DNA from: Rallus limicola
Taxonomy: Eukaryota; Chordata; Aves; Gruiformes; Rallidae
DNA: 64,000 nt
NCBI GenBank assembly: GCA_022605955.1
Contig: JAKCOZ010000083.1
Coordinates: 1,550,001-1,614,000, forward strand
Direction: 5' to 3'
A program made the translations under genes and the position numbers. The notes under the pieces are model-generated. The model had not been told where the DNA came from, made no database searches, and was given only the letters and a program-made list of their open reading frames with translations. Shown piece by piece: positions 1 through 56,618 of the stretch. Numbering within the stretch: the stretch's first letter is position 1; each line of letters starts with the position of its first letter.

Positions 1-3000
1 AGGGCCGAGAAAAGCACCGTAGGAGGTTCCAGGCATGTTCCCTCTTTCCAGGCAAAGGAAAAGGCTGAGAGCCAAAGTGACAGGGGCTGCTCGTGTGTCC
101 TGTTAGGAGGTTTCAGACAAGCTATGCCTTTCAGGCCTAGCTTCTTTACTTTGGGAGTTATTGCTGGACGTTTAGCATGTTTTGAACTGCAGTCTGCTAG
201 GGCCGAGAAAAGCACCGTAGGAGGTTCCAGGCATGTTCCCTCTTTCCAGGCAAAGGAAAAGGCTGAGAGCCAAAGTGACAGGTGCTGCTCATGTGTCCTG
301 TTAGGAGGTTTCAGACAAGCTATGCCTTTCAGGCCTAGCTTCTTTACTTTGGGAGTTATTGCTGGACGTTTAGCATATTTTGAATTGCAGTCTGCTAGGG
401 CCGAGAAAAGCACCGTAGGAGGTTCCAGGCATGTTCCCTCTTTCCAGGCAAAGGAAAAGGCTGAGAGCCAAAGTGACAGGGTCTGCTCGTGTGTCCTGTT
501 AGGAGGTTTCAGACAAGCTATGCCTTTCAGGCCTAGCTTCTTTACTTTGGGAGTTATTGCTGGACGTTTAGCATGTTTTGAACTGCAGTCTGCTAGGGCC
601 GAGAAAAGCACCGTAGGAGGTTCCAGGCATGTTCCCTCTTTCCAGGCAAAGGAAAAGGCTGAGAGCCAAAGTGACAGGGTCTGGTCGGGTGTCCTTTTAG
701 GAGGTTTCAGACAAGCTATGCCTATCAGGCCTAGCTTCTTTACTTTGGGAGTTATTGCTGGACGTTTAGCATGTTTTGAACTGCAGTCTGCTAGGGCCGA
801 GAAAAGCACCGTAGGAGGTTCCAGGCATGTTCCCTCTTTCCAGGCAAAGGAAAAGGCTGAGAGCCAAAGTGACAGGGGCTGCTCGTGTGTCCTGTTAGGA
901 GGTTTCAGACAAGCTATGCCTTTCAGGCCTAGCTTCTTTACTTTGGGAGTTATTGCTGGACGTTTAGCATGTTTTGAACTGCAGTCTGCTAGGGCCGAGA
1001 AAAGCACCGTAGGAGGTGCCAGGCATGTTCCCTCTTTCCAGGCAAAGGAAAAGGCTGAGAGCCAAAGTGAAAGGGTCTGCTCGTGTGTCCTGTTAGGAGG
1101 TTTCAGACAAGCTATGCCTTTCAGGCCTAGCTTCTTTACTTTGGGAGTTATTGCTGGACGTTTAGCATGTTTTGAACTGCAGTCTGCTAGGGCCGAGAAA
1201 AGCACCGTAGGAGGTTCCAGGCATGTTCCCTCTTTCCAGGCAAAGGAAAAGGCTGAGAGCCAAAGTGACAGGGGCTGCTCGTGTGTCATGTTAGGAGGTT
1301 TCAGACAAGCTATGCCTTTCAGGCCTAGCTTCTTTACTTTGGGAGTTATTGCTGGACGTTTAGCATGTTTTGAACTGCAGTCTGCTAGGGCCGAGAAAAG
1401 CACCGTAGGAGGTTCCAGGCATGTTCCCTCTTTCCAGGCAAAGGAAAAGGCTGAGAGCCAAAGTGACAGGGTCTGCTCGTGTGTCCTGTTAGGAGGTTTC
1501 AGACAAGCTATGCCTTTCAGGCCTAGCTTCTTTACTTTGGGAGTTATTGCTGGACGTTTAGCATGTTTTGAACTGCAGTCTGCTAGGGCCGAGAAAAGCA
1601 CCGTAGGAGGTTCCAGGCATGTTCCCTCTTTCCAGGCAAAGGAAAAGGCTGAGAGCCAAAGTGACAGGGTCTGCTCGTGTGTCCTGTTAGGAGGTTTCAG
1701 ACAAGCTATGCCTTTCAGGCCTAGCTTCTTTACTTTGGGAGTTATTGCTGGACGTTTAGCATGTTTTGAACTGCAGTCTGCTAGGGCCGAGAAAAGCACC
1801 GTAGGAGGTTCCAGGCATGTTCCCTCTTTCCAGGCAAAGGAAAAGGCTGAGAGCCAAAGTGACAGGGTCTGCTCGGGTGTCCTGTTAGGAGGTTTCAGAC
1901 AAGCTATGCCTTTCAGGCCTAGCTTCTTTACTTTGGGAGTTATTGCTGGACGTTTAGCATGTTTTGAACTGCAGTCTGCTAGGGCCGAGAAAAGCACCGT
2001 AGGAGGTTCCAGGCATGTTCCCTCTTTCCAGGCAAAGGAAAAGGCTGAGAGCCAAAGTGACAGGGTCTGCTCGGGTGTCCTGTTAGGAGGTTTCAGACAA
2101 GCTATGCCTTTCAGGCCTAGCTTCTTTACTTTGGGAGTTATTGCTGGACGTTTAGCATGTTTTGAGCTGCAGTCTGCTAGGGCCGAGAAAAGCACCGTAG
2201 GAGGTTCCAGGCATGTTCCCTCTTTCCAAGCAAAGGAAAAAGCTGAGAGCCAAAGTGAAAGGGTTTGCTCGTGTGTCCTGTTAGGAGGTTTCAGACAAGC
2301 TATGCCTTTCAGGCCTAGCTTCTTTACTTTGGGAGTTATTGCTGGACGTTTAGCATGTTTTGAATTGCAGTCTGCTAGGGCCGAGAAAAGCACCGTAGGA
2401 GGTTCCAGGCATGTTCCCTCTTTCCAGGCAAAGGAAAAGGCTGAGAGCCAAAGTGACAGGGTCTGCTTGTGTGTCCTGTTAGGAGGTTTCAGACAAGCTA
2501 TGCCTTTCAGGCCTAGCTTCTTTACTTTGGGAGTTATTGCTGGACGTTTAGCATGTTTTGAACTGCAGTCTGCTAGGGCCGAGAAAAGCACCGTAGGAGG
2601 TTCCAGGCATGTTCCCTCTTTCCAGGCAAAGGAAAAGGCTGAGAGCCAAAGTGACAGGGGCTGCTCGTGTGTCCTGTTAGGAGGTTTCAGACAAGCTATG
2701 CCTTTCAGGCCTAGCTTCTTTACTTTGGGAGTTATTGCTGGACGTTTAGCATGTTTTGAACTGCAGTCTGCTAGGGCCGAGAAAAGCACCGTAGGAGGTT
2801 CCAGGCATGTTCCCTCTTTCAAGCAAAGGAAAAGGCTGAGAGCCAAAGTGACAGGGTCTGCTCGGGTGTCCTGTTAGGAGGTTTCAGACAAGCTATGCCT
2901 TTCAGGCCTAGCTTCTTTACTTTGGGAGTTATTGCTGGACGTTTAGCATGTTTTGAACTGCAGTCTGCTAGGGCCGAGAAAAGCACCGTAGGAGGTTCCA

Positions 3001-4498
3001 GGCATGTTCCCTCTTTCCAGGCAAAGGAAAAGGCTGAGAGCCAAAGTGACAGTGTCTGCTCGTGTGTCCTGTTAGGAGGTTTCAGACAAGCTATGCCTTT
3101 CAGCCCTAGCTTCTTTACTTTGGGAGTTATTGCTGGACGTTTAGCATGTTTTGAATTACAGTCTGCTAGGGCCGAGAAAAGCACCGTAGGAGGTTCCAGG
3201 CATGTTCCCTCTTTCCAGGCAAAGGAAAAGGCTGAGAGCCAAAGTGACAGGGTCTGCTCGTGTGTCCTGTTAGGAGGTTTCAGACAAGCTATGCCTTTCA
3301 GGCCTAGCTTCTTTACTTTGGGAGTTATTGCTGGACGTTTAGCATGTTTTGAACTGCAGTCTGCTAGGGCCGAGAAAAGCACCGTAGGAGGTTCCAGGCA
3401 TGTTCCCTCTTTCCAGGCAAAGGAAAAGGCTGAGAACCAAAGTGACAGGGGCTGCTCGTGTGTCATGTTAGGAGGTTTCAGACAAGCTATGCCTTTCAGG
3501 CCTAGCTTCTTTACTTTGGGAGTTATTGCTGGACGTTTAGCATGTTTTGAACTGCAGTCTGCTAGGGCCGAGAAAAGCACCGTAGGAGGTTCCAGGCATG
3601 TTCCCTCTTTCCAGGCAAAGGAAAAGGCTGAGAGCCAAAGTGACAGGGGCTGCTCGTGTGTCCTGTTAGGAGGTTTCAGACAAGCTATGCCTTTCAGGCC
3701 TAGCTTCTTTACTTTGGGAGTTATTGCTGGACGTTTAGCATGTTTTGAACTGCAGTCTGCTAGGGCCAAGAAAAGCACCGTAGGAGGTTCCAGGCATGTT
3801 CCCTCTTTCCAGGCAAAGGAAAAGGCTGAGAGCCAAAGTGACAGGGGCTGCTCGTGTGTCCTGTTAGGAGGTTTCAGACAAGCTATGCCTTTCAGGCCTA
3901 GCTTCTTTACTTTGGGAGTTATTGCTGGACGTTTAGCATGTTTTGAACTGCAGTCTGCTAGGGCCGAGAAAAGCACCGTAGGAGGTTCCAGGCATGTTCC
4001 CTCTTTCCAGGCAAAGGAAAAGGCTGAGAACCAAAGTGACAGGGGCTGCTCGTGTGTCATGTTAGGAGGTTTCAGACAAGCTATGCCTTTCAGGCCTAGC
4101 TTCATTAATTTGGGAGTTATTGCTGGACGTTTAGCATGTTTTGAACTGCAGTCTGCTAGGGCCGAGAAAAGCACCATAGGAGGTTCCAGGCATGTTCCCT
4201 CTTTCCAGGCAAAGGAAAAGGCTGAGAACCAAAGTGACAGGGGCTGCTCGTGTGTCATGTTAGGAGGTTTCAGACAAGCTATGCCTTTCAGGCCTAGCTT
4301 CTTTACTTTGGGAGTTATTGCTGGACGTTTAACATGTTTTGAATTGCAGTCTGGTAGGGCCGAGAAAAGCACCGTAGGAGGTTCCAGGCATGTTCCCTCT
4401 TTCCAGGCAAAGGAAAAGGCTGAGAGCCAAAGTGACAGGGTCTGCTCGTGTGTCCTGTTAGGAGGTTTCAGACAAGCTATGCCTTTCAGGCCTAGCTT
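1..4498 (+). repeat. Segment 0: 22.7 monomers before the first junction
   Basis: A partial G monomer is followed by 22 full units starting at 124. Their order is a TGCTGCTCATG variant, L, a TGGTCGGGTG variant, G, a GAAAGGGTCTGC variant, G with CATG, T, T, X, X, K (2164), L with CTTGTG, G, X with a 1-bp deletion near 2820, an AGTGTCTGC variant, T with CAGCCC, N, G, G with CCAAGA, N, N (with TTCATTAATT and ACCATAGG), and L with TCTGGTAGG. The run K to the deleted X recurs 4,204 bp downstream in segment 1, deletion included. Confidence 0.93.
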
Positions 4499-4545
4499 GT
4501 CTGAAACCTCCTAACAGGACAAGCTATGCCTTTCATGCCTAGCTT
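4499..4545 (+). repeat. Junction 1: 47-bp inverted-duplication insertion
   Basis: The first 20 bp (gtctgaaacctcctaacagg) are the reverse complement of cctgttaggaggtttcagac lying 28-47 bp upstream. The remaining 27 bp directly repeat acaagctatg to ctagctt with one change (CAGG to CATG). Together with the upstream copy this makes an inverted repeat at 4451-4521: arms 4451-4479 and 4493-4521 (29 bp, perfect) around a 13-nt centre whose GCCT and AGGC can pair across TTC. The preceding monomer is type L. Confidence 0.96.
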
Positions 4546-7514
4546 CTTTACTTTGGGAGTTATTGCTGGACGTTTAGCATGTTTTGAACTGCAGTCTGCT
4601 AGGGCCGAGAAAAGCACCGTAGGAGGTTCCAGGCATGTTCCCTCTTTCCAGGCAAAGGAAAAGGCTGAGAGCCAAAGTGACAGGGGCTGCTCGTGTGTCC
4701 TGTTAGGAGGTTTCAGACAAGCTATGCCTTTCAGGCCTAGCTTCTTTACTTTGGGAGTTATTGCTGGACGTTTAGCATGTTTTGAGCTGCAGTCTGCTAG
4801 GGCCGAGAAAAGCACCGTAGGAGGTTCCAGGCATGTTCCCTCTTTCCAAGCAAAGGAAAAAGCTGAGAGCCAAAGTGAAAGGGTTTGCTCGTGTGTCCTG
4901 TTAGGAGGTTTCAGACAAGCTATGCCTTTCAGGCCTAGCATCTTTACTTTGGGAGTTATTGCTGGACGTTTAGCATATTTTGAATTGCAGTCTGCTAGGG
5001 CCGAGAAAAGCACCGTAGGAGGTTCCAGGCATGTTCCCTCTTTCCAGGCAAAGGAAAAGGCTGAGAGCCAAAGTGACAGGGGCTGCTTGTGTGTCCTGTT
5101 AGGAGGTTTCAGACAAGCTATGCCTTTCAGGCCTAGCTTCTTTACTTTGGGAGTTATTGCTGGACGTTTAGCATGTTTTGAACTGCAGTCTGCTAGGGCC
5201 GAGAAAAGCACCGTAGGAGGTTCCAGGCATGTTCCCTCTTTCCAGGCAAAGGAAAAGGCTGAGAGCCAAAGTGACAGGGTCTGCTCGTGTGTCCTGTTAG
5301 GAGGTTTCAGACAAGCTATGCCTTTCAGGCCTAGCTTCTTTACTTTGGGAGTTATTGCTGGACGTTTAGCATGTTTTGAACTGCAGTCTGCTAGGGCCGA
5401 GAAAAGCACCGTAGGAGGTTCCAGGCATGTTCCCTCTTTCCAGGCAAAGGAAAAGGCTGAGAGCCAAAGTGACAGGGGCTGCTCGTGTGTCCTGTTAGGA
5501 GGTTTCAGACAAGCTATGCCTTTCAGGCCTAGCTTCTTTACTTTGGGAGTTATTGCTGGACGTTTAGCATGTTTTGAACTGCAGTCTGCTAGGGCCGAGA
5601 AAAGCACCGTAGGAGGTTCCAGGCATGTTCCCTCTTTCCAGGCAAAGGAAAAGGCTGAGAGCCAAAGTGAAAGGGTCTGCTCGTGTGTCCTGTTAGGAGG
5701 TTTCAGACAAGCTATGCCTTTCAGGCCTAGCTTCTTTACTTTGGGAGTTATTGCTGGACGTTTAGCATGTTTTGAACTGCAGTCTGCTAGGGCCGAGAAA
5801 AGCACCGTAGGAGGTTCCAGGCATGTTCCCTCTTTCCAGGCAAAGGAAAAGGCTGAGAGCCAAAGTGACAGGGTCTGCTCGTGTGTCCTGTTAGGAGGTT
5901 TCAGACAAGCTATGCCTTTCAGGCCTAGCTTCTTTACTTTGGGAGTTATTGCTGGACGTTTAGCATGTTTTGAACTGCAGTCTGCTAGGGCCGAGAAAAG
6001 CACCGTAGGAGGTTCCAGGCATGTTCCCTCTTTCCAGGCAAAGGAAAAGGCTGAGAGCCAAAGTGACAGGGTCTGCTCGTGTGTCCTGTTAGGAGGTTTC
6101 AGACAAGCTATGCCTTTCAGGCCTAGCTTCTTTACTTTGGGAGTTATTGCTGGACGTTTAGCATGTTTTGAATTGCAGTCTGCTAGGGCCGAGAAAAGCA
6201 CCGTAGGAGGTTCCAGGCATGTTCCCTCTTTCCAGGCAAAGGAAAAGGCTGAGAGCCAAAGTGACAGGGTCTGCTCGGGTGTCCTGTTAGGAGGTTTCAG
6301 ACAAGCTATGCCTTTCAGGCCTAGCTTCTTTACTTTGGGAGTTATTGCTGGACGTTTAGCATGTTTTGAGCTGCAGTCTGCTAGGGCCGAGAAAAGCACC
6401 GTAGGAGGTTCCAGGCATGTTCCCTCTTTCCAAGCAAAGGAAAAAGCTGAGAGCCAAAGTGAAAGGGTTTGCTCGTGTGTCCTGTTAGGAGGTTTCAGAC
6501 AAGCTATGCCTTTCAGGCCTAGCTTCTTTACTTTGGGAGTTATTGCTGGACGTTTAGCATGTTTTGAATTGCAGTCTGCTAGGGCCGAGAAAAGCACCGT
6601 AGGAGGTTCCAGGCATGTTCCCTCTTTCCAGGCAAAGGAAAAGGCTGAGAGCCAAAGTGACAGGGTCTGCTTGTGTGTCCTGTTAGGAGGTTTCAGACAA
6701 GCTATGCCTTTCAGGCCTAGCTTCTTTACTTTGGGAGTTATTGCTGGACGTTTAGCATGTTTTGAACTGCAGTCTGCTAGGGCCGAGAAAAGCACCGTAG
6801 GAGGTTCCAGGCATGTTCCCTCTTTCCAGGCAAAGGAAAAGGCTGAGAGCCAAAGTGACAGGGGCTGCTCGTGTGTCCTGTTAGGAGGTTTCAGACAAGC
6901 TATGCCTTTCAGGCCTAGCTTCTTTACTTTGGGAGTTATTGCTGGACGTTTAGCATGTTTTGAACTGCAGTCTGCTAGGGCCGAGAAAAGCACCGTAGGA
7001 GGTTCCAGGCATGTTCCCTCTTTCAAGCAAAGGAAAAGGCTGAGATCCAAAGTGACAGGGTCTGCTCGGGTGTCCTGTTAGGAGGTTTCAGACAAGCTAT
7101 GCCTTTCAGGCCTAGCTTCTTTACTTTGGGAGTTATTGCTGGACGTTTAGCATGTTTTGAACTGCAGTCTGCTAGGGCCGAGAAAAGCACCGTAGGAGGT
7201 TCCAGGCATGTTCCCTCTTTCCAGGCAAAGGAAAAGGCTGAGAGCCAAAGTGACAGGGTCTGCTCGGGTGTCCTGTTAGGAGGTTTCAGACAAGCTATGC
7301 CTTTCAGCCCTAGCTTCTTTACTTTGGGAGTTATTGCTGGACGTTTAGCATGTTTTGAGCTCCAGTCTGCTAGGGCCGAGAAAAGCACCGTAGGAGGTTC
7401 CAGGCATGTTCCCTCTTTCCAGGCAAAGGAAAAGGCTGAGAGCCAAAGTGACAGGGTCTGCTCGTGTGTCCTGTTAGGAGGTTTCAGACAAGCTATGCCT
7501 TTCAGGCCTAGCTT
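4546..7514 (+). repeat. Segment 1: 15 monomers (one base short)
   Basis: Order: G, K (4784), L with TAGCATC, T, G, GAAAGGGTCTGC variant, T, T, LX, K (6368), L with CTTGTG, G, X with 1-bp deletion at about 7024, X, and a T unit carrying CAGCCC and GAGCTCCAG. The last six units are the start of the 3,016-bp higher-order repeat. Confidence 0.93.
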
Positions 7515-7561
7515 GTCTGAAACCTCCTAACAGGACAAGCTATGCCTTTCATGCCTAGCTT
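7515..7561 (+). repeat. Junction 2: 47-bp inverted-duplication insertion
   Basis: Same structure as junction 1. The inverted repeat spans 7467-7537 with perfect 29-bp arms. The monomer that follows carries the junction-linked GATAGGG variant at 7614. Confidence 0.96.
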
Positions 7562-10530
7562 CTTTACTTTGGGAGTTATTGCTGGACGTTTAGCATGTTT
7601 TGAACTGCAGTCTGATAGGGCCGAGAAAAGCACCGTAGGAGGTTCCAGGCATGTTCCCTCTTTCCAGGCAAAGGAAAAGGCTGAGAGCCAAAGTGACAGG
7701 GTCTGCTTGTGTGTCCTGTTAGGAGGTTTCAGACAAGCTATGCCTTTCAGGCCTAGCTTCTTTACTTTGGGAGTTATTGCTGGACGTTTAGCATGTTTTG
7801 AACTGCAGTCTGCTAGGGCCGAGAAAAGCACCGTAGGAGGTTCCAGGCATGTTCCCTCTTTCCAGGCAAAGGAAAAGGCTGAGAGCCAAAGTGACAGGGT
7901 CTGCTCGTGTGTCCTGTTAGGAGGTTTCAGACAAGCTATGCCTTTCATGCCTAGCTTCTTTACTTTGGGAGTTATTGCTGGACGTTTAGCATGTTTTGAA
8001 CTGCAGTCTGCTAGGGCCGAGAAAAGCACCGTAGGAGGTTCCAGGCATGTTCCCTCTTTCCAGGCAAAGGAAAAGGCTGAGAGCCAAAGTGACAGGGGCT
8101 GCTCGTGTGTCCTGTTAGGAGGTTTCAGACAAGCTATGCCTTTCAGGCCTAGCTTCTTTACTTTGGGAGTTATTGCTGGACGTTTAGCATGTTTTGAACT
8201 GCAGTCTGCTAGGGCTGAGAAAAGCACCGTAGGAGGTTCCAGGCATGTTCCCTCTTTCCAGGCAAAGGAAAAGGCTGAGAGCCAAAGTGACAGGGGCTGC
8301 TCGTGTGTCCTGTTAGGAGGTTTCAGACAAGCTATGCCTTTCAGGCCTAGCTTCTTTACTTTGGGAGTTATTGCTGGACGTTTAGCATGTTTTGAATTGC
8401 AGTCTGCTAGGGCCGAGAAAAGCACCGTAGGAGGTTCCAGGCATGTTCCCTCTTTCCAGGCAAAGGAAAAGGCTGAGAGCCAAAGTGACAGGGTCTGCTC
8501 GTGTGTCCTGTTAGGAGGTTTCAGACAAGCTATGCCTTTCAGGCCTAGCTTCTTTACTTTGGGAGTTATTGCTGGACGTTTAGCATGTTTTGAACTGCAG
8601 TCTGCTAGGGCCGAGAAAAGCACCGTAGGAGGTTCCAGGCATGTTCCCTCTTTCCAGGCAAAGGAAAAGGCTGAGAGCCAAAGTGACAGTGTCTGCTCGT
8701 GTGTCCTGTTAGGAGGTTTCAGACAAGCTATGCCTTTCAGGCCTAGCTTCTTTAATTTGGGAGTTATTGCTGGACATTTAGCATGTTTTGAACTGCAGTC
8801 TGCTAGGCCCGAGAAAAGCACCGTAGGAGGTTCCAGGCATGTTCCCTCTTTCCAGGCAAAGGAAAAGGCTGAGAGCCAAAGTGACAGGGTCTGCTCGTGT
8901 GTCCTGTTAGGAGGTTTCAGACAAGCTATGCCTTTCAGGCCTAGCTTCTTTACTTTGGGAGTTATTGCTGGACGTTTAGCATGTTTTGAACTGCAGTCTG
9001 CTAGGGCCGAGAAAAGCACCGTAGGAGGTTCCAGGCATGTTCCCTCTTTCCAGGCAAAGAAAAAGGCTGAGAGCCAAAGTGACAGGTGCTGCTCGTGTGT
9101 CCTGTTAGGAGGTTTCAGACAAGCTATGCCTTTCAGGCCTAGCTTCTTTACTTTGGGAGTTATTGCTGGACGTTTAGCATGTTTTGAACTGCAGTCTGCT
9201 AGGGCCGAGAAAAGCACCATAGGAGGTTCCAGGCATGTTCCCTCTTTCCAGGCAAAGGAAAAGGCTGAGAGCCAAAGTGACAGGGTCTGCTCGGGTGTCC
9301 TGATAGGAGGTTTCAGACAAGCTATGCCTTTCAGGCCTAGCTTCTTTACTTTGGGAGTTATTGCTGGACGTTTAGCATGTTTTGAGCTGCAGTCTGCTAG
9401 GGCCGAGAAAAGCACCGTAGGAGGTTCCAGGCATGTTCCCTCTTTCCAAGCAAAGGAAAAAGCTGAGAGCCAAAGTGAAAGGGTTTGCTCGTGTGTCCTG
9501 TTAGGAGGTTTCAGACAAGCTATGCCTTTCAGGCCTAGCTTCTTTACTTTGGGAGTTATTGCTGGACGTTTAGCATGTTTTGAATTGCAGTCTGCTAGGG
9601 CCGAGAAAAGCACCGTAGGAGGTTCCAGGCATGTTCCCTCTTTCCAGGCAAAGGAAAAGGCTGAGAGCCAAAGTGACAGGGTCTGCTTGTGTGTCCTGTT
9701 AGGAGGTTTCAGACAAGCTATGCCTTTCAGGCCTAGCTTCTTTACTTTGGGAGTTATTGCTGGACGTTTAGCATGTTTTGAACTGCAGTCTGCTAGGGCC
9801 GAGAAAAGCACCGTAGGAGGTTCCAGGCATGTTCCCTCTTTCCAGGCAAAGGAAAAGGCTGAGAGCCAAAGTGACAGGGGCTGCTCGTGTGTCCTGTTAG
9901 GAGGTTTCAGACAAGCTATGCCTTTCAGGCCTAGCTTCTTTACTTTGGGAGTTATTGCTGGACGTTTAGCATGTTTTGAACTGCAGTCTGCTAGGGCCGA
10001 GAAAAGCACCGTAGGAGGTTCCAGGCATGTTCCCTCTTTCAAGCAAAGGAAAAGGCTGAGATCCAAAGTGACAGGGTCTGCTCGGGTGTCCTGTTAGGAG
10101 GTTTCAGACAAGCTATGCCTTTCAGGCCTAGCTTCTTTACTTTGGGAGTTATTGCTGGACGTTTAGCATGTTTTGAACTGCAGTCTGCTAGGGCCGAGAA
10201 AAGCACCGTAGGAGGTTCCAGGCATGTTCCCTCTTTCCAGGCAAAGGAAAAGGCTGAGAGCCAAAGTGACAGGGTCTGCTCGGGTGTCCTGTTAGGAGGT
10301 TTCAGACAAGCTATGCCTTTCAGCCCTAGCTTCTTTACTTTGGGAGTTATTGCTGGACGTTTAGCATGTTTTGAGCTCCAGTCTGCTAGGGCCGAGAAAA
10401 GCACCGTAGGAGGTTCCAGGCATGTTCCCTCTTTCCAGGCAAAGGAAAAGGCTGAGAGCCAAAGTGACAGGGTCTGCTCGTGTGTCCTGTTAGGAGGTTT
10501 CAGACAAGCTATGCCTTTCAGGCCTAGCTT
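7562..10530 (+). repeat. Segment 2: 15 monomers (one base short)
   Basis: Order: GATAGGG unit with CTTGTG, T, G (CATGCC), G (GGCTGAG), L, AGTGTCTGC variant, a unit with TTTAATTTGG, GGACATTT and AGGCCCGAG, a unit with CAAAGAAAA and TGCTGC, an X unit with ACCATAGG and CCTGATAGG, K (9384), L with CTTGTG, G, X with 1-bp deletion at about 10040, X, T with CAGCCC and GAGCTCCAG. The last six units repeat the end of segment 1 and the first nine repeat into segment 3. Confidence 0.93.
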
Positions 10531-10577
10531 GTCTGAAACCTCCTAACAGGACAAGCTATGCCTTTCATGCCTAGCTT
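10531..10577 (+). repeat. Junction 3: 47-bp inverted-duplication insertion
   Basis: The inverted repeat spans 10483-10553 with perfect 29-bp arms. It lies exactly 3,016 bp after junction 2 within duplicated flanks. The next monomer has GATAGGG at 10630. Confidence 0.96.
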
Positions 10578-13151
10578 CTTTACTTTGGGAGTTATTGCTG
10601 GACGTTTAGCATGTTTTGAACTGCAGTCTGATAGGGCCGAGAAAAGCACCGTAGGAGGTTCCAGGCATGTTCCCTCTTTCCAGGCAAAGGAAAAGGCTGA
10701 GAGCCAAAGTGACAGGGTCTGCTTGTGTGTCCTGTTAGGAGGTTTCAGACAAGCTATGCCTTTCAGGCCTAGCTTCTTTACTTTGGGAGTTATTGCTGGA
10801 CGTTTAGCATGTTTTGAACTGCAGTCTGCTAGGGCCGAGAAAAGCACCGTAGGAGGTTCCAGGCATGTTCCCTTTTTCCAGGCAAAGGAAAAGGCTGAGA
10901 GCCAAAGTGACAGGGTCTGCTCGTGTGTCCTGTTAGGAGGTTTCAGACAAGCTATGCCTTTCAGGCCTAGCTTCTTTACTTTGGGAGTTATTGCTGGACG
11001 TTTAGCATGTTTTGAACTGCAGTCTGCTAGGGCCGAGAAAAGCACCGTAGGAGGTTCCAGGCATGTTCCCTCTTTCCAGGCAAAGGAAAAGGCTGAGAGC
11101 CAAAGTGACAGGGGCTGCTCGTGTGTCCTGTTAGGAGGTTTCAGACAAGCTATGCCTTTCAGGCCTAGCTTCTTTACTTTGGGAGTTATTGCTGGACGTT
11201 TAGCATGTTTTGAACTGCAGTCTGCTAGGGCTGAGAAAAGCACCGTAGGAGGTTCCAGGCATGTTCCCTCTTTCCAGGCAAAGGAAAAGGCTGAGAGCCA
11301 AAGTGACAGGGGCTGCTCGTGTGTCCTGTTAGGAGGTTTCAGACAAGCTATGCCTTTCAGGCCTAGCTTCTTTACTTTGGGAGTTATTGCTGGACGTTTA
11401 GCATGTTTTGAATTGCAGTCTGCTAGGGCCGAGAAAAGCACCGTAGGAGGTTCCAGGCATGTTCCCTCTTTCCAGGCAAAGGAAAAGGCTGAGAGCCAAA
11501 GTGACAGGGTCTGCTCGTGTGTCCTGTTAGGAGGTTTCAGACAAGCTATGCCTTTCAGGCCTAGCTTCTTTACTTTGGGAGTTATTGCTGGACGTTTAGC
11601 ATGTTTTGAACTGCAGTCTGCTAGGGCCGAGAAAAGCACCGTAGGAGGTTCCAGGCATGTTCCCTCTTTCCAGGCAAAGGAAAAGGCTGAGAGCCAAAGT
11701 GACAGTGTCTGCTCGTGTGTCCTGTTAGGAGGTTTCAGACAAGCTATGCCTTTCAGGCCTAGCTTCTTTAATTTGGGAGTTATTGCTGGACATTTAGCAT
11801 GTTTTGAACTGCAGTCTGCTAGGCCCGAGAAAAGCACCGTAGGAGGTTCCAGGCATGTTCCCTCTTTCCAGGCAAAGGAAAAGGCTGAGAGCCAAAGTGA
11901 CAGGGTCTGCTCGTGTGTCCTGTTAGGAGGTTTCAGACAAGCTATGCCTTTCAGGCCTAGCTTCTTTACTTTGGGAGTTATTGCTGGACGTTTAGCATGT
12001 TTTGAACTGCAGTCTGCTAGGGCCGAGAAAAGCACCGTAGGAGGTTCCAGGCATGTTCCCTCTTTCCAGGCAAAGAAAAAGGCTGAGAGCCAAAGTGACA
12101 GGTGCTGCTCGTGTGTCCTGTTAGGAGGTTTCAGACAAGCTATGCCTTTCAGGCCTAGCTTCTTTACTTTGGGAGTTATTGCTGGACGTTTAGCATGTTT
12201 TGAACTGCAGTCTGCTAGGGCCGAGAAAAGCACCATAGGAGGTTCCAGGCATGTTCCCTCTTTCCAGGCAAAGGAAAAGGCTGAGAGCCAAAGTGACAGG
12301 GTCTGCTCGGGTGTCCTGATAGGAGGTTTCAGACAAGCTATGCCTTTCAGGCCTAGCTTCTTTACTTTGGGAGTTATTGCTGGACGTTTAGCATGTTTTG
12401 AACTGCAGTCTGCTAGGGCCGAGAAAAGCACCGTAGGAGGTTCCAGGCATGTTCCCTCTTTCCAGGCAAAGGAAAAGGCTGAGAGCCAAAGTGACAGGGT
12501 CTGCTCGTGTGTCCTGTTAGGAGGTTTCAGACAAGCTATGCCTTTCAGGCCTAGCTTCTTTACTTTGGGAGTTATTGCTGGACGTTTAGCATGTTTTGAA
12601 CTGCAGTCTGCTAGGGCCGAGAAAAGCACCGTAGGACGTTCCAGGCATGTTCCCTCTTTCCAGGCAAAGGAAAAGGCTGAGAGCCAAAGTGACAGGTGCT
12701 GCTCATGTGTCCTGTTAGGAGGTTTCAGACAAGCTATGCCTTTCAGGCCTAGCTTCTTTACTTTTGGAGTTATTGCTGGACGTTTAGCATGTTTTGAACT
12801 GCAGTCTGCTAGGGCCGAGAAAAGCACCATAGGAGGTTCCAGGCATGTTCCCTCTTTCCAGGCAAAGGAAAAGGCTGAGAGCCAAAGTGACAGGGTCTGC
12901 TCGGGTGTCCTGATAGGAGGTTTCAGACAAGCTATGCCTTTCAGGCCTAGCTTCTTTACTTTGGGAGTTATTGCTGGACGTTTAGCATGTTTTGAACTGC
13001 AGTCTGCTAGGGCCGAGAAAAGCACCGTAGGAGGTTCCAGGCATGTTCCCTCTTTCCAGGCAAAGGAAAAGGCTGAGAGCCAAAGTGACAGGGGCTGCTC
13101 GTGTGTCCTGTTAGGAGGTTTCAGACAAGCTATGCCTTTCAGGCCTAGCTT
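10578..13151 (+). repeat. Segment 3: 13 monomers
   Basis: The first nine units repeat segment 2 units 1-9 almost exactly, including AGTGTCTGC, TTTAATTTGG, CAAAGAAAA and CCTGATAGG. They are followed by T, a unit with TAGGACGTTCC and TGCTGCTCATG, a second ACCATAGG/CCTGATAGG unit (with TACTTTTGG), and G. The CCTGATAGG marker recurs 594 bp apart (12318 and 12912), which suggests a local three-monomer duplication. Confidence 0.92.
11746..12933 (+). repeat. Probable local three-monomer (594-bp) duplication
   Basis: A TGCTGC unit followed by an ACCATAGG/CCTGATAGG unit occurs twice, 594 bp apart. The first unit of each triplet is less alike, so the exact edges are uncertain. Confidence 0.6.
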
Positions 13152-13198
13152 GTCTGAAACCTCCTAACAGGACAAGCTATGCCTTTCATGCCTAGCTT
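13152..13198 (+). repeat. Junction 4: 47-bp inverted-duplication insertion
   Basis: The inverted repeat spans 13104-13174 with perfect 29-bp arms. The preceding unit is type G and the restored copy has CATGCC. Confidence 0.96.
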
Positions 13199-15548
13199 CT
13201 TTACTTTGGGAGTTATTGCTGGACGTTTAGCATGTTTTGAACTGCAGTCTGCTAGGGCCGAGAAAAGCACCGTAGGAGGTTCCAGGCATGTTCCCTCTTT
13301 CCAGGCAAAGGAAAAGGCTGAGAGCCAAAGTGACAGGGGCTGCTCGTGTGTCCTGTTAGGAGGTTTCAGACAAGCTATGCCTTTCAGGCCTAGCTTCTTT
13401 ACTTTGGGAGTTATTGCTGGACGTTTAGCATGTTTTGAACTGCAGTCTGCTAGGGCCGAGAAAAGCACCGTAGGAGGTTCCAGGCATGTTCCCTCTTTCC
13501 AGGCAAAGGAAAAGGCTGAGAGCCAAAGTGACAGGTGCTGCTCATGTGTCCTGTTAGGAGGTTTCAGACAAGCTATGCCTTTCAGGCCTAGCTTCTTTAC
13601 TTTGGGAGTTATTGCTGGACGTTTAGCATGTTTTGAACTGCAGTCTGCTAGGGCCGAGAAAAGCACCGTAGGAGGTTCCAGGCATGTTCCCTCTTTCCAG
13701 GCAAAGGAAAAGGCTGAGAGCCAAAGTGACAGGGTCTGCTCGTGTGTCCTGTTAGGAGGTTTCAGACAAGCTATGCCTTTCAAGCCTAGCTTCTTTACTT
13801 TGGGAGTTATTGCTGGACGTTTAGCATGTTTTGAACTGCAGTCTGCTAGGGCCGAGAAAAGCACCGTAGGAGGTTCCAGGCATGTTCCCTCTTTCCAGGC
13901 AAAGGAAAAGGCTGAGAGCCAAAGTGACAGGGTCTGCTCGTGTGTCCTGTTAGGAGGTTTCAGACAAGCTATGCCTTTCAGGCCTAGCTTCTTTACTTTG
14001 GGAGTTATTGCTGGACGTTTAGCATGTTTTGAACTGCAGTCTGCTAGGGCCGAGAAAAGCACCGTAGGAGGTTCCAGGCATGTTCCCTCTTTCCAGGCAA
14101 AGGAAAAGGCTGAGAGCCAAAGTGACAGGGTCTGCTCGGGTGTCCTGTTAGGAGGTTTCAGACAAGCTATGCCTTTCAGGCCTAGCTTCTTTACTTTGGG
14201 AGTTATTGCTGGACGTTTAGCATGTTTTGAGCTGCAGTCTGCTAGGGCCGAGAAAAGCACCGTAGGAGGTTCCAGGCATGTTCCCTCTTTCCAAGCAAAG
14301 GAAAAAGCTGAGAGCCAAAGTGAAAGGGTTTGCTCGTGTGTCCTGTTAGGAGGTTTCAGACAAGCTATGCCTTTCAAGCCTAGCTTCTTTACTTTGGGAG
14401 TTATTGCTGGACGTTTAGCATGTTTTGAATTGCAGTCTGCTAGGGCCGAGAAAAGCACCGTAGGAGGTTCCAGGCATGTTCCCTCTTTCCAGGCAAAGGA
14501 AAAGGCTGAGAGCCAAAGTGACAGGTTTCAGACAAGCTATGCCTTTCAGGCCTCGCTTCTTTACTTTGGGAGGTATTGCTGGACGTTTAGCATGTTTTGA
14601 ACTGCAGTCTGCTAGGGCCGAGAAAAGCACCGTAGGAGGTTCCAGGCATGTTCCCTCTTTCCAGGCAAAGGAAAAGGCTGAGAGCCAAAGTGACAGGGTC
14701 TGCTCGTGTGTCCTGTTAGGAGGTTTCAGACAAGCTATGCCTTTCAGGCCTAGCTTCTTTACTTTGGGAGTTATTGCTGGACGTTTAGCATGTTTTGAAC
14801 TGCAGTCTGCTAGGGCCGAGAAAAGCACCGTAGGAGGTTCCAGGCATGTTCCCTCTTTCCAGGCAAAGGAAAAGGCTGAGAGCCAAAGTGACAGGGGCTG
14901 CTCGTGTGTCCTGTTAGGAGCTTTCAGACAAGCTATGCCTTTCAGGCCTAGCTTCTTTACTTTGGGAGTTATTGCTGGACGTTTAGCATGTTTTGAACTG
15001 CAGTCTGCTAGGGCCGAGAAAAGCACCGTAGGAGGTTCCAGGCATGTTCCCTCTTTCCAGGCAAAGGAAAAGGCTGAGAACCAAAGTGACAGGGGCTGCT
15101 CGTGTGTCATGTTAGGAGGTTTCAGACAAGCTATGCCTTTCAGGCCTAGCTTCTTTACTTTGGGAGTTATTGCTGGACGTTTAGCATGTTTTGAACTGCA
15201 GTCTGCTAGGGCCGAGAAAAGCACCGTAGGAGGTTCCAGGCATGTTCCCTCTTTCCAGGCAAAGGAAAAGGCTGAGAACCAAAGTGACAGGGGCTGCTCG
15301 TGTGTCATGTTAGGAGGTTTCATACAAGCTATGCCTTTCAGGCCTAGCTTCTTTACTTTGGGAGTTATTGCTGGACGTTTAGCATGTTTTGAATTGCAGT
15401 CTGCTAGGGCCGAGAAAAGCACCGTAGGAGGTTCCAGGCATGTTCCCTCTTTCCAGGCAAAGGAAAAGGCTGAGAGCCAAAGTGACAGGGTCTGCTCGTG
15501 TGTCCTGTTAGGAGGTTTCAGACAAGCTATGCCTTTCAGGCCTAGCTT
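13199..15548 (+). repeat. Segment 4: 12 monomers with a 26-bp deletion
   Basis: Order: G, TGCTGCTCATG unit, T, T (CAAGCC), X, K (14229), L (CAAGCC) that has lost 26 bp at 14525/14526, T with CCTCGCTTC and GAGGTATT, G with GAGCTTTC, N, N with CATACAAG, L. The deletion joins GACAGG directly to TTTCAGAC. The AGG before it matches the AGG at the end of the lost segment, a short microhomology. Confidence 0.92.
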
Positions 15549-15595
15549 GTCTAAAACCTCCTAACAGGACAAGCTATGCCTTTCATGCCTAGCTT
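15549..15595 (+). repeat. Junction 5: 47-bp insertion, GTCTAAAACC variant
   Basis: The inverted repeat spans 15501-15571 with one mismatch in the 29-bp arms (GTCTAAAAC in place of GTCTGAAAC). Junctions 14 and 15 share this change, which marks them as close relatives. It is preceded by L and followed by a GATAGGG unit. Confidence 0.95.
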
Positions 15596-17500: not shown

Positions 17501-18167
17501 GCCAAAGTGACAGGGGCTGCTCGTGTGTCCTGTTAGGAGGTTTCAGACAAGCTATGCCTTTCAGGCCTAGCTTCTTTACTTTGGGAGTTATTGCTGGACG
17601 TTTAGCATGTTTTGAACTGAAGTCTGCTAGGGCTGAGAAAAGCACCGTAGGAGGTTCCAGGCATGTTCCCTCTTTCCAGGCAAAGGAAAAGGCTGAGAGC
17701 CAAAGTGACAGGGTCTGCTCGTGTGTCCTGTTAGGAGGTTTCAGACAAGCTATGCCTTTCAGGCCTAGCTTCTTTACTTTGGGAGTTATTGCTGGACGTT
17801 TAGCATGTTTTGAACTGCAGTCTGCTAGGGCCGAGAAAAGCACCGTAGGAGGTTCCAGGCATGTTCCCTCTTTCCAGGCAAAGGAAAAGGCTGAGAGCCA
17901 AAGTGACAGGGGCTGCTCGTGTGTCCTGTTAGGAGGTTTCAGACAAGCTATGCCTTTCAGGCCTAGCTTCTTTACTTTGGGAGTTATTGCTGGACGTTTA
18001 GCATGTTTTGAACTGCAGTCTGCTAGGGCCGAGAAAAGCACCGTAGGAGGTTCCAGGCATGTTCCCTCTTTCCAGGCAAAGGAAAAGGCTGAGAGCCAAA
18101 GTGACAGGGTCTGCTCGTGTGTCCTGTTAGGAGGTTTCAGACAAGCTATGCCTTTCAGGCCTAGCTT
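15596..18167 (+). repeat. Segment 5: 13 monomers (two bases short)
   Basis: Order: GATAGGG N (with ACTGTAGGAG), G, unit with 1-bp deletion giving CAGGCTTGCTTC at about 15983, T, T, T, G with GAGCTTTC, T with 1-bp deletion TGTGTCTGTT at about 17134, N, G with GCACAGTAGG (17445), T with GAACTGAAG, G, T. Units 1-10 recur in the same order 16.5 kb downstream in segment 15, apart from unit 5, which is T here and G there. Confidence 0.92.
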
Positions 18168-18214
18168 GTCTGAAACCTCCTAACAGGAGAAGCTATGCCT
18201 TTCCTGCCTAGCTT
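18168..18214 (+). repeat. Junction 6: 47-bp insertion, AGGAGAAGC variant
   Basis: The inverted repeat spans 18120-18190 with one mismatch near the outer end (AGGAGAAGC for AGGACAAGC). The restored copy reads TTTCCTGCC. Junction 17 shares AGGAGAAGC. Confidence 0.95.
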
Positions 18215-19402
18215 CTTTACTTTGGGAGTTATTGCTGGACGTTTAGCATGTTTTGAACTGCAGTCTGCTAGGGCCGAGAAAAGCACCGTAGGAGGTTCCA
18301 GGCATGTTCCCTCTTTCCAGGCAAAGGAAAAGGCTGAGAGCCAAAGTGACAGGGTCTGCTCGTGTGTCCTGTTAGGAGGTTTCAGACAAGCTATGCCTTT
18401 CAGGCCTAGCTTCTTTACTTTGGGAGTTATTGCTGGACGTTTAGCATGTTTTGAACTGCAGTCTGCTAGGGCCGAGAAAAGCACCGTAGGAGGTTCCAGG
18501 CATGTTCCCTCTTTCCAGGCAAAGGAAAAGGCTGAGAGCCAAAGTGACAGGGGCTGCTCGTGTGTCCTGTTAGGAGGTTTCAGACAAGCTATGCCTTTCA
18601 GGCCTAGCTTCTTTACTTTGGGAGTTATTGCTGGACGTTTAGCACGTTTTGAACTGCAGTCTGCTAGGGCCGAGAAAAGCACCGTAGGAGGTTCCAGGCA
18701 TGTTCCCTCTTTCCAGGCAAAGGAAAAGGCTGAGAGCCAAAGTGACAGGGTCTGCTCGTGTGTCCTGTTAGGAGGTTTCAGACAAGCTATGCCTTTCAGG
18801 CCTAGCTTCTTTACTTTGGGAGTTATTGCTGGACGTTTAGCATGTTTTGAACTGCAGTCTGCTAGGGCCGAGAAAAGCACCGTAGGAGGTTCCAGGCATG
18901 TTCCCTCTTTCCAGGCAAAGGAAAAGGCTGAGAGCCAAAGTGACAGGGTCTGCTCGTGTGTCCTGTTAGGAGGTTTCAGACAAGCTATGCCTTTCAGGCC
19001 TAGCTTCTTTACTTTGGGAGTTATTGCTGGACGTTTAGCATGTTTTGAACTGCAGTCTGCTAGGGCCGAGAAAAGCACCGTAGGAGGTTCCAGGCATGTT
19101 CCCTCTTTCCAGGCAAAGGAAAAGGCTGAGAGCCAAAGTGAGAGGGGCTGCTCGTGTGTCATGTTAGGAGGTTTCAGACAAGCTATGCCTTTCAGGCCTA
19201 GCTTCTTTACTTTGGGAGTTATTGCAGGACGTTTAGCATGTTTTGAACTGCAGTCTGCTAGGGCCGAGAAAAGCACCGTAGGAGGTTCCAGGCATGTTCC
19301 CTCTTTCCAGGCAAAGGAAAAGGCTGAGAGCCAAAGTGACAGGGTCTGCTCGTGTGTCCTGTTAGGAGGTTTCAGACAAGCTATGCCTTTCAGGCCTAGC
19401 TT
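18215..19402 (+). repeat. Segment 6: 6 monomers
   Basis: Order: T, G, T with GCACGTTT, T, a GAGAGGGGCTGC unit with CATG, and T with GCAGGACG. There are no length changes. Confidence 0.93.
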
Positions 19403-19449
19403 GTCTGAAACCTCCTAACAGGACAAGCTATGCCTTTCAGGCCTAGCTT
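19403..19449 (+). repeat. Junction 7: 47-bp insertion, CAGGCC form
   Basis: The inverted repeat spans 19355-19425 with perfect arms. The restored direct copy keeps CAGGCC, matching the standard monomer. Junctions 9, 10, 18, 21 and 24 share this, against CATGCC in most others. Confidence 0.96.
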
Positions 19450-20043
19450 CTTTACTTTGGGAGTTATTGCTGGACGTTTAGCATGTTTTGAACTGCAGTC
19501 TGCTAGGGCCGAGAAAAGCACCGTAGGAGGTTCCAGGCATGTTCCCTTTTTCCAGGCAAAGGAAAAGGCTGAGAGCCAAAGTGACAGGGTCTGCTCGTGT
19601 GTCCTGTTAGGAGGTTTCAGACAAGCTATGCCTTTCAGGCCTAGCTTCTTTACTTTGGGAGTTATTGCTGGACGTTTAGCATGTTTTGAACTGCAGTCTG
19701 CTAGGGCCGAGAAAAGCACCGTAGGAGGTTCAAGGCATGTTCCCTCTTTCCAGGCAAAGGAAAAGGCTGAGAGCCAAAGTGACAGGGGCTGCTCGTGTGT
19801 CCTGTTAGGAGGTTTCAGACAAGCTATGCCTTTCAGGCCTAGCTTCTTTACTTTGGGAGTTATTGCTGGACGTTTAGCATGTTTTGAACTGCAGTCTGCT
19901 AGGGCCGAGAAAAGCACCGTAGGAGGTTCCAGGCATGTTCCCTCTTTCCAGGCAAAGGAAAAGGCTGAGAGCCAAAGTGACAGGGTCTGCTCGTGTGTCC
20001 TGTTAGGAGGTTTCAGACAAGCTATGCCTTTCAGGCCTAGCTT
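19450..20043 (+). repeat. Segment 7: 3 monomers
   Basis: Order: T with CCCTTTTTCC, G with GGTTCAAGG, T. This is one of the shortest intervals between junctions. Confidence 0.93.
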
Positions 20044-20090
20044 GTCTGAAACCTCCTAACAGGACAAGCTATGCCTTTCATGCCTAGCTT
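20044..20090 (+). repeat. Junction 8: 47-bp inverted-duplication insertion
   Basis: The inverted repeat spans 19996-20066 with perfect arms. The following monomer has CTTTTCTTTGG, GGACTTTTAG and GATAGGG. Confidence 0.96.
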
Positions 20091-22267
20091 CTTTTCTTTG
20101 GGAGTTATTGCTGGACTTTTAGCATGTTTTGAACTGCAGTCTGATAGGGCTGAGAAAAGCACCGTAGGAGGTTCCAGGCATGTTCCCTCTTTCCAGGCAA
20201 AGGAAAAGGCTGAGAGCCAAAGTGACAGGGTCTGCTCGTGTGTCCTGTTAGGAGGTTTCAGACAAGCTATGCTTTCAGGCCTAGCTTCTTTACTTTGGGA
20301 GTTATTGCTGGACGTTTAGCATGTTTTGAACTGCAGTCTGCTAGGGCCGAGAAAAGCACCGTAGGAGGTTCCAGGCATGTTCCCTCTTTCCAGGCAAAGG
20401 AAAAGGCTGAGAGCCAAAGTGACAGGGGCTGCTCGTGTGTCCTGTTAGGAGGTTTCAGACAAGCTATGCCTTTCAGGCCTAGCTTCTTTACTTTGGGAGT
20501 TATTGCTGGACGTTTAGCATGTTTTGAACTGCAGTCTGCTAGGGCCGAGAAAAGCACCGTAGGAGGTTCCAGGCATGTTCCCTCTTTCCAGGCAAAGGAA
20601 AAGGCTGAGAGCCAAAGTGACAGGGTCTGCTCGTGTGTCCTGTTAGGAGGTTTCAGACAAGCTATGCCTTTCAGGCCTAGCTTCTTTACTTTGGGAGTTA
20701 TTGCTGGACGTTTAGCATGTTTTGAACTGCAGTCTGCTAGGGCCGAGAAAAGCACCGTAGGAGGTTCCAGGCATGTTCCCTCTTTCCAGGCAAAGGAAAA
20801 GGCTGAGAGCCAAAGTGACAGGGGCTGCTCGTGTGTCCTGTTAGGAGGTTTCAGACAAGCTATGCCTTTCAGGCCTAGCTTCTTTACTTTGGGAGTTATT
20901 GCTGGACGTTTAGCATGTTTTGAACTGCAGTCTGCTAGGGCCGAGAAAAGCACCGTAGGAGGTTCCAGGCATGTTCCCTCTTTCCAGGCAAAGGAAAAGG
21001 CTGAGAGCCAAAGTGACAGGGTCTGCTCGTGTGTCCTGTTAGGAGGTTTCAGACAAGCTATGCCTTTCAGGCCTAGCTTCTTTACTTTGGGAGTTATTGC
21101 TGGACGTTTAGCATGTTTTGAGCTGCAGTCTGCTAGGGCCGAGAAAAGCACCGTAGGAGGTTCCAGGCATGTTCCCTCTTTCCAGGCAAAGGAAAAGGCT
21201 GAGAGCCAAAGTGACAGGGTCTGCTCGTGTGTCCTGTTAGGAGGTTTCAGACAAGCTATGCCTTTCAGGCCTAGCTTCTTTACTTTGGGAGTTATTGCTG
21301 GACGTTTAGCATGTTTTGAACTGCAGTCTGCTAGGGCCGAGAAAAGCACCGTAGGAGGTTCCAGGCATGTTCCCTCTTTCCAGGCAAAGGAAAAGGCTGA
21401 GAGCCAAAGTGACAGGGGCTGCTCGTGTGTCCTGTTAGGAGGTTTCAGACAAGCTATGCCTTTCAGGCCTAGCTTCTTTACTTTGGGAGTTATTGCAGGA
21501 CGTTTAGCATGTTTTGAACTGCAGTCTGCTAGGGCCGAGAAAAGCACCGTAGGAGGTTCCAGGCATGTTCCCTCTTTCCAGGCAAAGGAAAAGGCTGAGA
21601 GCCAAAGTGACAGGGGCTGCTCGTATGTCCTGTTAGGAGGTTTCAGACAAGCTATGCCTTTCAGGCCTAGCTTCTTTACTTTGGGAGTTATTGCTGGACG
21701 TTTAGCATGTCTTGAACTGCAGTCTGCTAGGGCCGAGAAAAGCACCGTAGGAGGTTCCAGGCATGTTCCCTCTTTCCAGGCAAAGGAAAAGGCTGAGAGC
21801 CAAAGTGACAGGGGCTGCTCGTGTGTCCTGTTAGGAGGTTTCAGACAAGCTATGCCTTTCAGGCCTAGCTTCTTTACTTTGGGAGTTATTGCAGGACGTT
21901 TAGCATGTTTTGAACTGCAGTCTGCTAGGGCCGAGAAAAGCACCGTAGGAGGTTCCAGGCATGTTCCCTCTTTCCAGGCAAAGGAAAAGGCTGAGAGCCA
22001 AAGTGACAGGGGCTGCTCGTGTGTCCTGTTAGGAGGTTTCAGACAAGCTATGCCTTTCAGGCCTAGCTTCTTTACTTTGGGAGTTATTGCTGGACGTTTA
22101 GCATGTCTTGAACTGCAGTCTGCTAGGGCCGAGAAAAGCACCGTAGGAGGTTCCAGGCATGTTCCCTCTTTCCAGGCAAAGGAAAAGGCTGAGAGCCAAA
22201 GTGACAGGGTCTGCTCGTGTGTCCTGTTAGGAGGTTTCAGACAAGCTATGCCTTTCAGGCCTAGCTT
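20091..22267 (+). repeat. Segment 8: 11 monomers (one base short)
   Basis: The first unit is GATAGGG T. A 1-bp deletion (ATGCTTTCAGG) at about 20272 follows, then G, T, G, T, T with GAGCTGCAG only, G, and two copies of a dimer: a GCAGGACG unit plus a CATGTCTTGAACTG unit. The dimer copies lie 396 bp apart. Confidence 0.92.
21456..22247 (+). repeat. Two-monomer (396-bp) higher-order repeat, two copies
   Basis: The pair of a GCAGGACG monomer and a CATGTCTTG monomer occurs at 21456-21851 and again at 21852-22247, the second directly before junction 9. The copies differ at TCGTATGTCC versus TCGTGTGTCC and in the type G/T site. The same pair ends segments 17 and 20 and occurs inside segment 18. 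Confidence 0.85.
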
Positions 22268-22314
22268 GTCTGAAACCTCCTAACAGGACAAGCTATGCCT
22301 TTCAGGCCTAGCTT
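22268..22314 (+). repeat. Junction 9: 47-bp insertion, CAGGCC form
   Basis: The inverted repeat spans 22220-22290 with perfect arms. The preceding monomer carries CATGTCTTG, as before junctions 18 and 21. Confidence 0.96.
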
Positions 22315-23106
22315 CTTTACTTTGGGAGTTATTGCTGGACGTTTAGCATGTTTTGAACTGCAGTCTGCTAGGGCCGAGAAAAGCACCGTAGGAGGTTCCA
22401 GGCATGTTCCCTCTTTCCAGGCAAAGGAAAAGGCTGAGAGCCAAAGTGACAGGGTCTGCTCGTGTGTCCTGTTAGGAGGTTTCAGACAAGCTATGCCTTT
22501 CAGGCCTAGCTTCTTTACTTTGGGAGTTATTGCTGGACGTTTAGCATGTTTTGAACTGCAGTCTGCTAGGGCCGAGAAAAGCACCGTAGGAGGTTCCAGG
22601 CATGTTCCCTCTTTCCAGGCAAAGGAAAAGGCTGAGAGCCAAAGTGACAGGGGCTGCTCGTGTGTCCTGTTAGGAGGTTTCAGACAAGCTATGCCTTTCA
22701 GGCCTAGCTTCTTTACTTTGGGAGTTATTGCTGGACGTTTAGCATGTTTTGAACTGCAGTCTGCTAGGGCCGAGAAAAGCACCGTAGGAGGTTCCAGGCA
22801 TGTTCCCTCTTTCCAGGCAAAGGAAAAGGCTGAGAGCCAAAGTGACAGGGTCTGCTCGTGTGTCCTGTTAGGAGGTTTCAGACAAGCTATGCCTTTCAGG
22901 CCTAGCTTCTTTACTTTGGGAGTTATTGCTGGACGTTTAGCATGTTTTGAACTGAAGTCTGCAAGGGCCGAGAAAAGCACCGTAGGAGGTTCCAGGCATG
23001 TTCCCTCTTTCCAGGCAAAGGAAAAGGCTGAGAGCCAAAGTGACAGGGTCTGCTCGTGTGTCCTGTTAGGAGGTTTCAGACAAGCTATGCCTTTCAGGCC
23101 TAGCTT
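22315..23106 (+). repeat. Segment 9: 4 monomers
   Basis: Order: T, G, T, and T with GAACTGAAG and GCAAGGGCC. There are no length changes. Confidence 0.93.
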
Positions 23107-23153
23107 GTCTGAAACCTCCTAACAGGACAAGCTATGCCTTTCAGGCCTAGCTT
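23107..23153 (+). repeat. Junction 10: 47-bp insertion, CAGGCC form
   Basis: The inverted repeat spans 23059-23129 with perfect 29-bp arms. Confidence 0.96.
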
Positions 23154-56571: not shown

Positions 56572-56618
56572 GTCTGAAACCTCCTAACAGGACAAGCTAT
56601 GCCTTTCATGCCTAGCTT
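56572..56618 (+). repeat. Junction 27: 47-bp inverted-duplication insertion
   Basis: The inverted repeat spans 56524-56594 with perfect 29-bp arms. Confidence 0.96.

Follow-up and report, generated by a model that had tools for sequence, protein, structure and literature searches.

Short template switch mutations create hairpins in RNA genes, and at MIR633 a later inversion of the loop was taken as support for the mechanism (PMC8794818; PNAS 2022). Template switching in yeast homogenizes the arms of inverted repeats and inverts the spacers between them, and long arms favour inversion (PMC8604942; Sci Rep 2021). In Tribolium madens, satellite inversion sites named INV_1a, INV_1b and INV_2 are conserved and present in thousands of copies (PMC13081366; Genome Biol 2026). 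Satellites of birds include the Anseriform repeats APL-HaeIII (190 bp) and AFA-HinfI-L (192 bp), both with GC near 50% (PMC6435179), and a candidate centromeric repeat of 191 bp in a parrot (PMC8854603).

The DNA described here is a 198-bp satellite of Rallus limicola in which a longer monomer, of 245 bp, carries a hairpin junction. It resembles the RNA genes of PMC8794818 in that a reverse-complement copy of adjacent sequence gives a perfect stem, and in the inversion of the loop, but the setting is a satellite, the copies number tens of thousands, and second-order ladders are present. Exact inversion of the spacer between the arms is shared with yeast (PMC8604942), where single loci in strains are concerned, whereas here thousands of copies with two arm lengths occur in one genome. 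A recurring, conserved hairpin junction in a major satellite is also seen in T. madens (PMC13081366). There the array flips orientation at the site; here an array inversion boundary was rejected, as monomer orientation is unchanged across all 30 junctions of the window. The avian satellites resemble the 198-bp monomer in length, and those of the Anseriformes also in GC near 50%, a comparison made by description only; the main text of PMC6435179 nowhere uses the word 'inverted'.

It is our reading, to which we give a probability of about 83%, that one template switch turned an ancestral 198-bp monomer into the 245-bp form, which was then spread and further rearranged. Mutations of this type are known; what is new, as far as we have seen, is where this one sits, how many copies it has and how it was rearranged afterwards. 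Among the titles and abstract openings listed, from mostly non-subscription literature, none describes a single template-switch product amplified inside a satellite. Events are rare and copies similar, which makes it hard to measure how often template switching happens in heterochromatic tandem arrays. In this one genome a single haplotype-marked event is present about 24,000 times beside about 750,000 unswitched copies of the same seed. Loop inversion can be set side by side for arms of about 10 and 29 bp, and an order established among the second-order products. Replication through satellite hairpins becomes a counting problem on existing assemblies and raw reads, and the arrays a natural record of how copying slips reshape repetitive DNA.

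The satellite array and the junction monomer

The window, by which is meant the whole stretch of 64,000 nucleotides analysed, is positions 1,550,001–1,614,000 of contig C83 (1.71 Mb) in an assembly of 1.395 Gb and 1102 contigs. Its 315 monomers comprise 274 of 198 bp, 10 of 197 bp, 30 of 245 bp and one of 172 bp. The lone 172-bp monomer, at 14442–14613, lacks 26 bp just upstream of the hairpin region and is the only large length variant in the window besides the junction type. At 16 other 10-kb stretches sampled on C83 the 198-bp satellite was found in all 16. Mean likeness of ordinary monomers to the consensus was 98.3–99.5% in the 15 inner samples and the window, and 97.1% in the sample from the contig end (L001).

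The satellite is not confined to this contig. It was present in 12 of 20 stretches sampled on other contigs (L017–L036) and absent from 8. One 23-mer from the monomer arm has 801,543 exact matches genome-wide, two for each junction, from which rough arithmetic puts the satellite at about 11% of the assembly. The 128-Mb contig C1 also has the satellite near 78 Mb, a location that would suit a centromere. On one chromosome stretch, L017, lies an ORF that we take to be a CR1 reverse transcriptase, with loose matches to CR1 end motifs, as fits a bird genome. Several searches gave no matches: Rfam had none at the gathering threshold within 1–5400, the sole stretch searched; no plasmid relatives of 4275–4745 were found; a DNA similarity search for relatives, which skips very common words, returned 0 matches; and six monomer strings sought in the texts of papers to name the satellite were not found. 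A higher-order repeat of fixed period was rejected, since at lags of 1–79 monomers the mean difference never fell below 2.3 (overall 3.41) and gaps between junctions range from 2 to 24 monomers.

The original prediction, made from the window alone, was that the same 47 bp interrupts the satellite at 30 places, each time giving an inverted repeat of 71 nt whose 29-bp arms are perfect in 16. The junction is in register at every one of the 30 places. When the whole window was scanned for arms of 29 bp separated by 13 nt, allowing up to 6 mismatches, exactly 30 places were found, with 0 mismatches in 16, 1 in 11 and 2 in 3. The 'stop position' listed earlier for each insert always falls on the same inner base, 7 nt short of the end of the 71-nt repeat. 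The predicted composition of the insert, a 20-nt inverted copy followed by a 27-nt direct duplication, is read from the sequence at 4499–4545; the duplication repeats the stretch immediately preceding the insert. A check of breakpoints, in copies read on C83 and four other contigs, bore out a single recurring junction. To say that it breaks the satellite was too strong, as the junction is a longer monomer type in which phase is kept. The features are listed below in window coordinates; the numbered inverted repeats, of 71 nt each, come from the arm scan, and other bases are given in brackets.

1–64000, + strand, 198-bp satellite, continuous uninterrupted array in one orientation (monomer parse; sampling of C83)
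119–143, + strand, native quasi-palindrome of the first monomer, the junction's seed, 10-bp arms with one mismatch, 5-nt loop (monomer position, folding)
4499–4518, + strand, first part of insert, 20 nt copied in inverted form from monomer sequence upstream (sequence, arm scan)
4519–4545, + strand, 27-nt direct duplication with diagnostic G-to-T change, second part of insert (sequence, site comparison)
4451–4521, + strand, inverted repeat 1, perfect arms (also folding)
7467–7537, + strand, inverted repeat 2, perfect arms
10483–10553, + strand, inverted repeat 3, perfect arms
13104–13174, + strand, inverted repeat 4, perfect arms
15501–15571, + strand, inverted repeat 5, 1 mismatch
18120–18190, + strand, inverted repeat 6, 1 mismatch
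19355–19425, + strand, inverted repeat 7, perfect arms
19996–20066, + strand, inverted repeat 8, perfect arms
22220–22290, + strand, inverted repeat 9, perfect arms
23059–23129, + strand, inverted repeat 10, perfect arms
24096–24166, + strand, inverted repeat 11, 2 mismatches
25331–25401, + strand, inverted repeat 12, 2 mismatches
27556–27626, + strand, inverted repeat 13, 1 mismatch
29385–29455, + strand, inverted repeat 14, 1 mismatch
32003–32073, + strand, inverted repeat 15, 1 mismatch
35217–35287, + strand, inverted repeat 16, 2 mismatches
36056–36126, + strand, inverted repeat 17, 1 mismatch
37489–37559, + strand, inverted repeat 18, 1 mismatch
40704–40774, + strand, inverted repeat 19, perfect arms
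42335–42405, + strand, inverted repeat 20, 1 mismatch; a loop-adjacent T-to-G change completes the inner stem
44758–44828, + strand, inverted repeat 21, perfect arms
45597–45667, + strand, inverted repeat 22, perfect arms
47228–47298, + strand, inverted repeat 23, 1 mismatch; T-to-G as in repeat 20, in a block common to both (also block comparison)
50245–50315, + strand, inverted repeat 24, perfect arms
55044–55114, + strand, inverted repeat 25, perfect arms
56081–56151, + strand, inverted repeat 26, 1 mismatch
56524–56594, + strand, inverted repeat 27, perfect arms
57957–58027, + strand, inverted repeat 28, perfect arms
59786–59856, + strand, inverted repeat 29, 1 mismatch
63199–63269, + strand, inverted repeat 30, perfect arms

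Folded as a single strand, the 95-nt junction reaches −40.8 kcal/mol (z = −14.8), with 0 of 200 shuffles as good. The small native stem forms in an ordinary 95-nt stretch, which reaches −10.3 kcal/mol (z = −2.0; 6 of 200 shuffles as good).

Seed, founding insert and spread

The ordinary monomer contains a quasi-palindrome, AAGCTATGCC-TTTCA-GGCCTAGCTT, at 119–143, which is exact in 841 of 999 monomers examined. In the junction monomer the sequence runs through this native stem, continues into the reverse copy GTCTGAAACCTCCTAACAGG and from there goes back to ...ACAAGCTATGCC. At the return point the inverted copy would go on with GGACA and the direct template has AGACA, so that GACA is common to both, a microhomology of 4 nt. 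Four features by which a template switch is recognized are present: an exact reverse-complement copy, pre-existing inverted homology, a return at microhomology and, as described below, loop inversion. Taken as sequence, the insert is the signature of a putative fold-back template switch with microhomology return.

The founding event may be pictured as follows. During DNA synthesis the nascent strand would arrive at the end of the native quasi-palindrome and fold back, or switch to the complementary strand, so that its 3′ end paired within the hairpin. About 20 nt would be copied in reverse, after which synthesis would leave and re-enter the direct template 27 nt upstream by way of the common GACA. 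The outcome would be a gain of 47 bp and the conversion of a 10-bp imperfect stem into a perfect stem of 29 bp, with the change presumably running from the 198-bp to the 245-bp form. The variant may then have spread within arrays and between contigs by unequal crossing over, conversion and segmental copying, and the long hairpin would have become a hotspot, at which later switches inverted the loop and stacked extra inverted copies. In the 245-bp monomers a single site distinguishes the two copies of the duplicated stretch: the second has T there in 70 of 77 and the first in 0 of 77. The same T is found in 57 of 959 ordinary monomers. The difference may reflect a return onto another monomer that bore the T, or a later G-to-T change.

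The linked variants of junction monomers bear on how often the event occurred. On C83 the junction type makes up 80 of 1086 monomers, and of these 80 there are 77 of 245 bp and 3 of 244 bp; the site-by-site comparison used the 77, leaving out the three of 244 bp, and a 347-bp monomer in L015 stands outside the 80. T at site 85 is found in 66 of the 77 junction monomers vs 515 of 959 ordinary ones (P = 1.5e-8), and variants common among ordinary monomers are scarce in junction monomers (site 99, 1/77 vs 111/959; site 70, 1/77 vs 104/959). Junction monomers diverge by 0.75% from their own consensus, vs 1.04% for ordinary monomers. The junction is one founder lineage, genome-wide; many independent junction events are unsupported, given the common linked variants.

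The sampled stretches are split by site 91 into two broad subfamilies, T91 and C91. In the summed samples, junctions occur in 0 of 210 monomers of T91-type stretches vs 82 of 1085 of the C91 type (P = 5e-7). Patterns of 53 and 54 letters for the exact C91 and T91 junctions gave 13,261 and 210 matches genome-wide, raw counts that are not scaled to the sizes of the subfamilies. The exact 23-letter junction word occurs 23,837 times on many contigs, and rough division of word counts gives a junction share of about 3% of monomers. Five copies on C20 (17.8 Mb), C31 (9.6 Mb), C220 and C240 have breakpoints as on C83, and one of them was read over 235 of its 245 bp.

Further rearrangement at the hairpin

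Local inversions were sought in 1036 monomers of 198 or 245 bp as exact inversions of 4–40 nt that account for at least 3 changes. Two were found, of 39 and 11 nt, both centred on the hairpin. Control strings that were only reversed gave 2 matches (4 and 7 nt, both in the indel-rich L001), and strings that were only complemented gave 0. One of the two inversions, at L002:9096, turns the 13-nt loop of a junction around; the other, at L008:1931, does so to the 5-nt loop of an ordinary monomer. In a third event, at L015:3902, an inverted loop is joined to another position of the monomer at the microhomology GGCAT. Two further monomers of L015, at 126 and 2794, have in common a cluster of changes adjoining the left side of the native hairpin.

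Genome-wide, in a single 53-letter frame, junctions with the loop inverted number 1,199 and those with the loop unflipped 13,261 (1,199/14,460 = 8.3%). The word for the flipped loop also matches ladders, which account for at most 14 of the 1,199. A 13-nt flip pattern (121 matches) was discarded in favour of a longer one, because its reverse complement has the same letters as a point variant of the normal junction. In ordinary monomers, inverted loops were found in 52 copies of the 5-nt pattern, on 22 contigs, and 66 of the 13-nt pattern, 118 together, against an estimated 754,000 or so monomers. Flips per copy are thus about 500 times as frequent for the long arms as for the ordinary short ones, as gauged with patterns of unequal length. 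These counts are of copies, not events, and some copies are clustered by descent, as at 1.00–1.02 Mb on C70. Control patterns read backwards gave 0 matches in all of the genome-wide pattern searches.

More complex forms occur on C31, where junction words are spaced 47, 75 and 83 bp apart, and forward and reverse pieces alternate in the three stretches examined (L039–L041). L039 and L040 are ladders that have in common an off-consensus upstream base but in which the second loop does not point the same way, so that a flip probably separates close relatives. L041 is another complex form, with a longer inverted stretch. The word for the second-order palindromic ladder has 14 exact copies on 7 contigs, six of the copies on C31; two were read.

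Fold-back in break repair or exchange between arms could give an identical sequence. In such a chemistry a broken end would fold back at the quasi-palindrome and be filled in, and the flips would come about by crossing over between arms or by cutting of a cruciform. Perfect arms of 29 bp are capable of exchange, and the roughly 500-fold excess of inverted loops per long-arm copy is what any process that depends on arm length would give. Yet the inner stem of the 5-nt flip in an ordinary monomer has only a few bp, too short for ordinary homologous exchange, and the 4-nt microhomology at the return of the founding insert directly fits polymerase switching. We therefore consider this chemistry unlikely and prefer a template switch during synthesis for both the insert and the flips. 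It is equally doubtful that the hairpin drives its own spread, by stalling forks or by breaking, with repair then taking place out of register from the sister or another chromosome. If it did, junction monomers would be preferentially copied, helping the satellite to reach about one-tenth of the genome, and switch events would be recorded, as they happened, in loop orientation and ladder order.

Spacing, selection and array structure

The spacing of junctions had been described as irregular and in whole monomers. Both parts stood, with distances of 2 to 24 monomers, but the spacing is not random, being too even. The variance of the gaps is 27, lower than under random placement (P = 0.0004); no two junctions in the window are adjacent (P = 0.047), and the longest gap is 24 (P = 0.024). 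Plain random exchange does not predict such even spacing. Elsewhere on C83 two adjacent pairs were found, in L013 and L014, and the 15 inner samples have 0 to 6 junctions per 10 kb, a distribution not clearly distinct from Poisson (dispersion 1.49, P = 0.11).

Some junctions have been copied in blocks. A block of 11 monomers holding two junctions is present both at 40411 and at 45304, and a block of 7 monomers holding one junction both at 6383 and at 9399. Runs of at least 5 shared monomers are found for 2.3% of junction pairs vs 0.8% of random pairs. The monomers flanking junctions are more alike than those flanking random monomers at 2 of 16 neighbouring offsets, +1 (P = 0.02) and +4 (P < 0.002; 0 of 500 random sets as low), with offsets −8 and −7 borderline. 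Since only these two offsets stand out, spread was mostly not by way of large recent blocks.

It is very unlikely that the hairpin spread because it is selected, for instance as a cruciform aiding the assembly of centromere or heterochromatin proteins. Its presence in some 3% of monomers would fit, and dyad symmetries have been proposed to matter at centromeres (PMC13081366). Selection for arm perfection is, however, unsupported by the decay of the arms: a mean of 0.545 arm changes per copy leads to an expectation of 58% perfect, and 43 of 77 (56%) were observed. Change per bp was 0.94% in the arms vs 0.63% in the rest (P = 0.04, in a test inflated by shared descent). With perfection at the neutral expectation and arms that change no more slowly, nothing shows selection or arm-to-arm repair. 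The absence of the hairpin from the 210 T91-type monomers and its patchiness among the 15 samples also count against a selected role, as does the absence of a CENP-B box, which had 0 matches on both strands of the window and, with 2 mismatches allowed, none in the consensus. Artefacts of sequencing or assembly, among them the fold-back chimaeric reads that can yield inverted duplications in long-read data, are extremely improbable as the source of a junction that has the same breakpoints with differing linked variants in 77 copies on C83 and 5 on four other contigs, that recurs as 23,837 exact junction words, and that keeps whole-monomer phase.

Three observations concern the arrays themselves. 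On contig C250 the C91 subfamily is found at 100 kb (L026) and the T91 subfamily in the opposite orientation at 200 kb (L029), which indicates that array inversions and blocks of subfamilies exist. The first 10 kb of C83 (L001) belongs to the T91 subfamily, has many monomers of 199 bp and some longer ones, with 0 junctions, and is like an array edge. In the consensus monomer, positions 19–84 and 103–168 have a common start, TAGGAGGTT.CAG, and are identical without gaps at 32 of 66 positions; the 198-bp monomer, by this internal likeness, looks like an old dimer.
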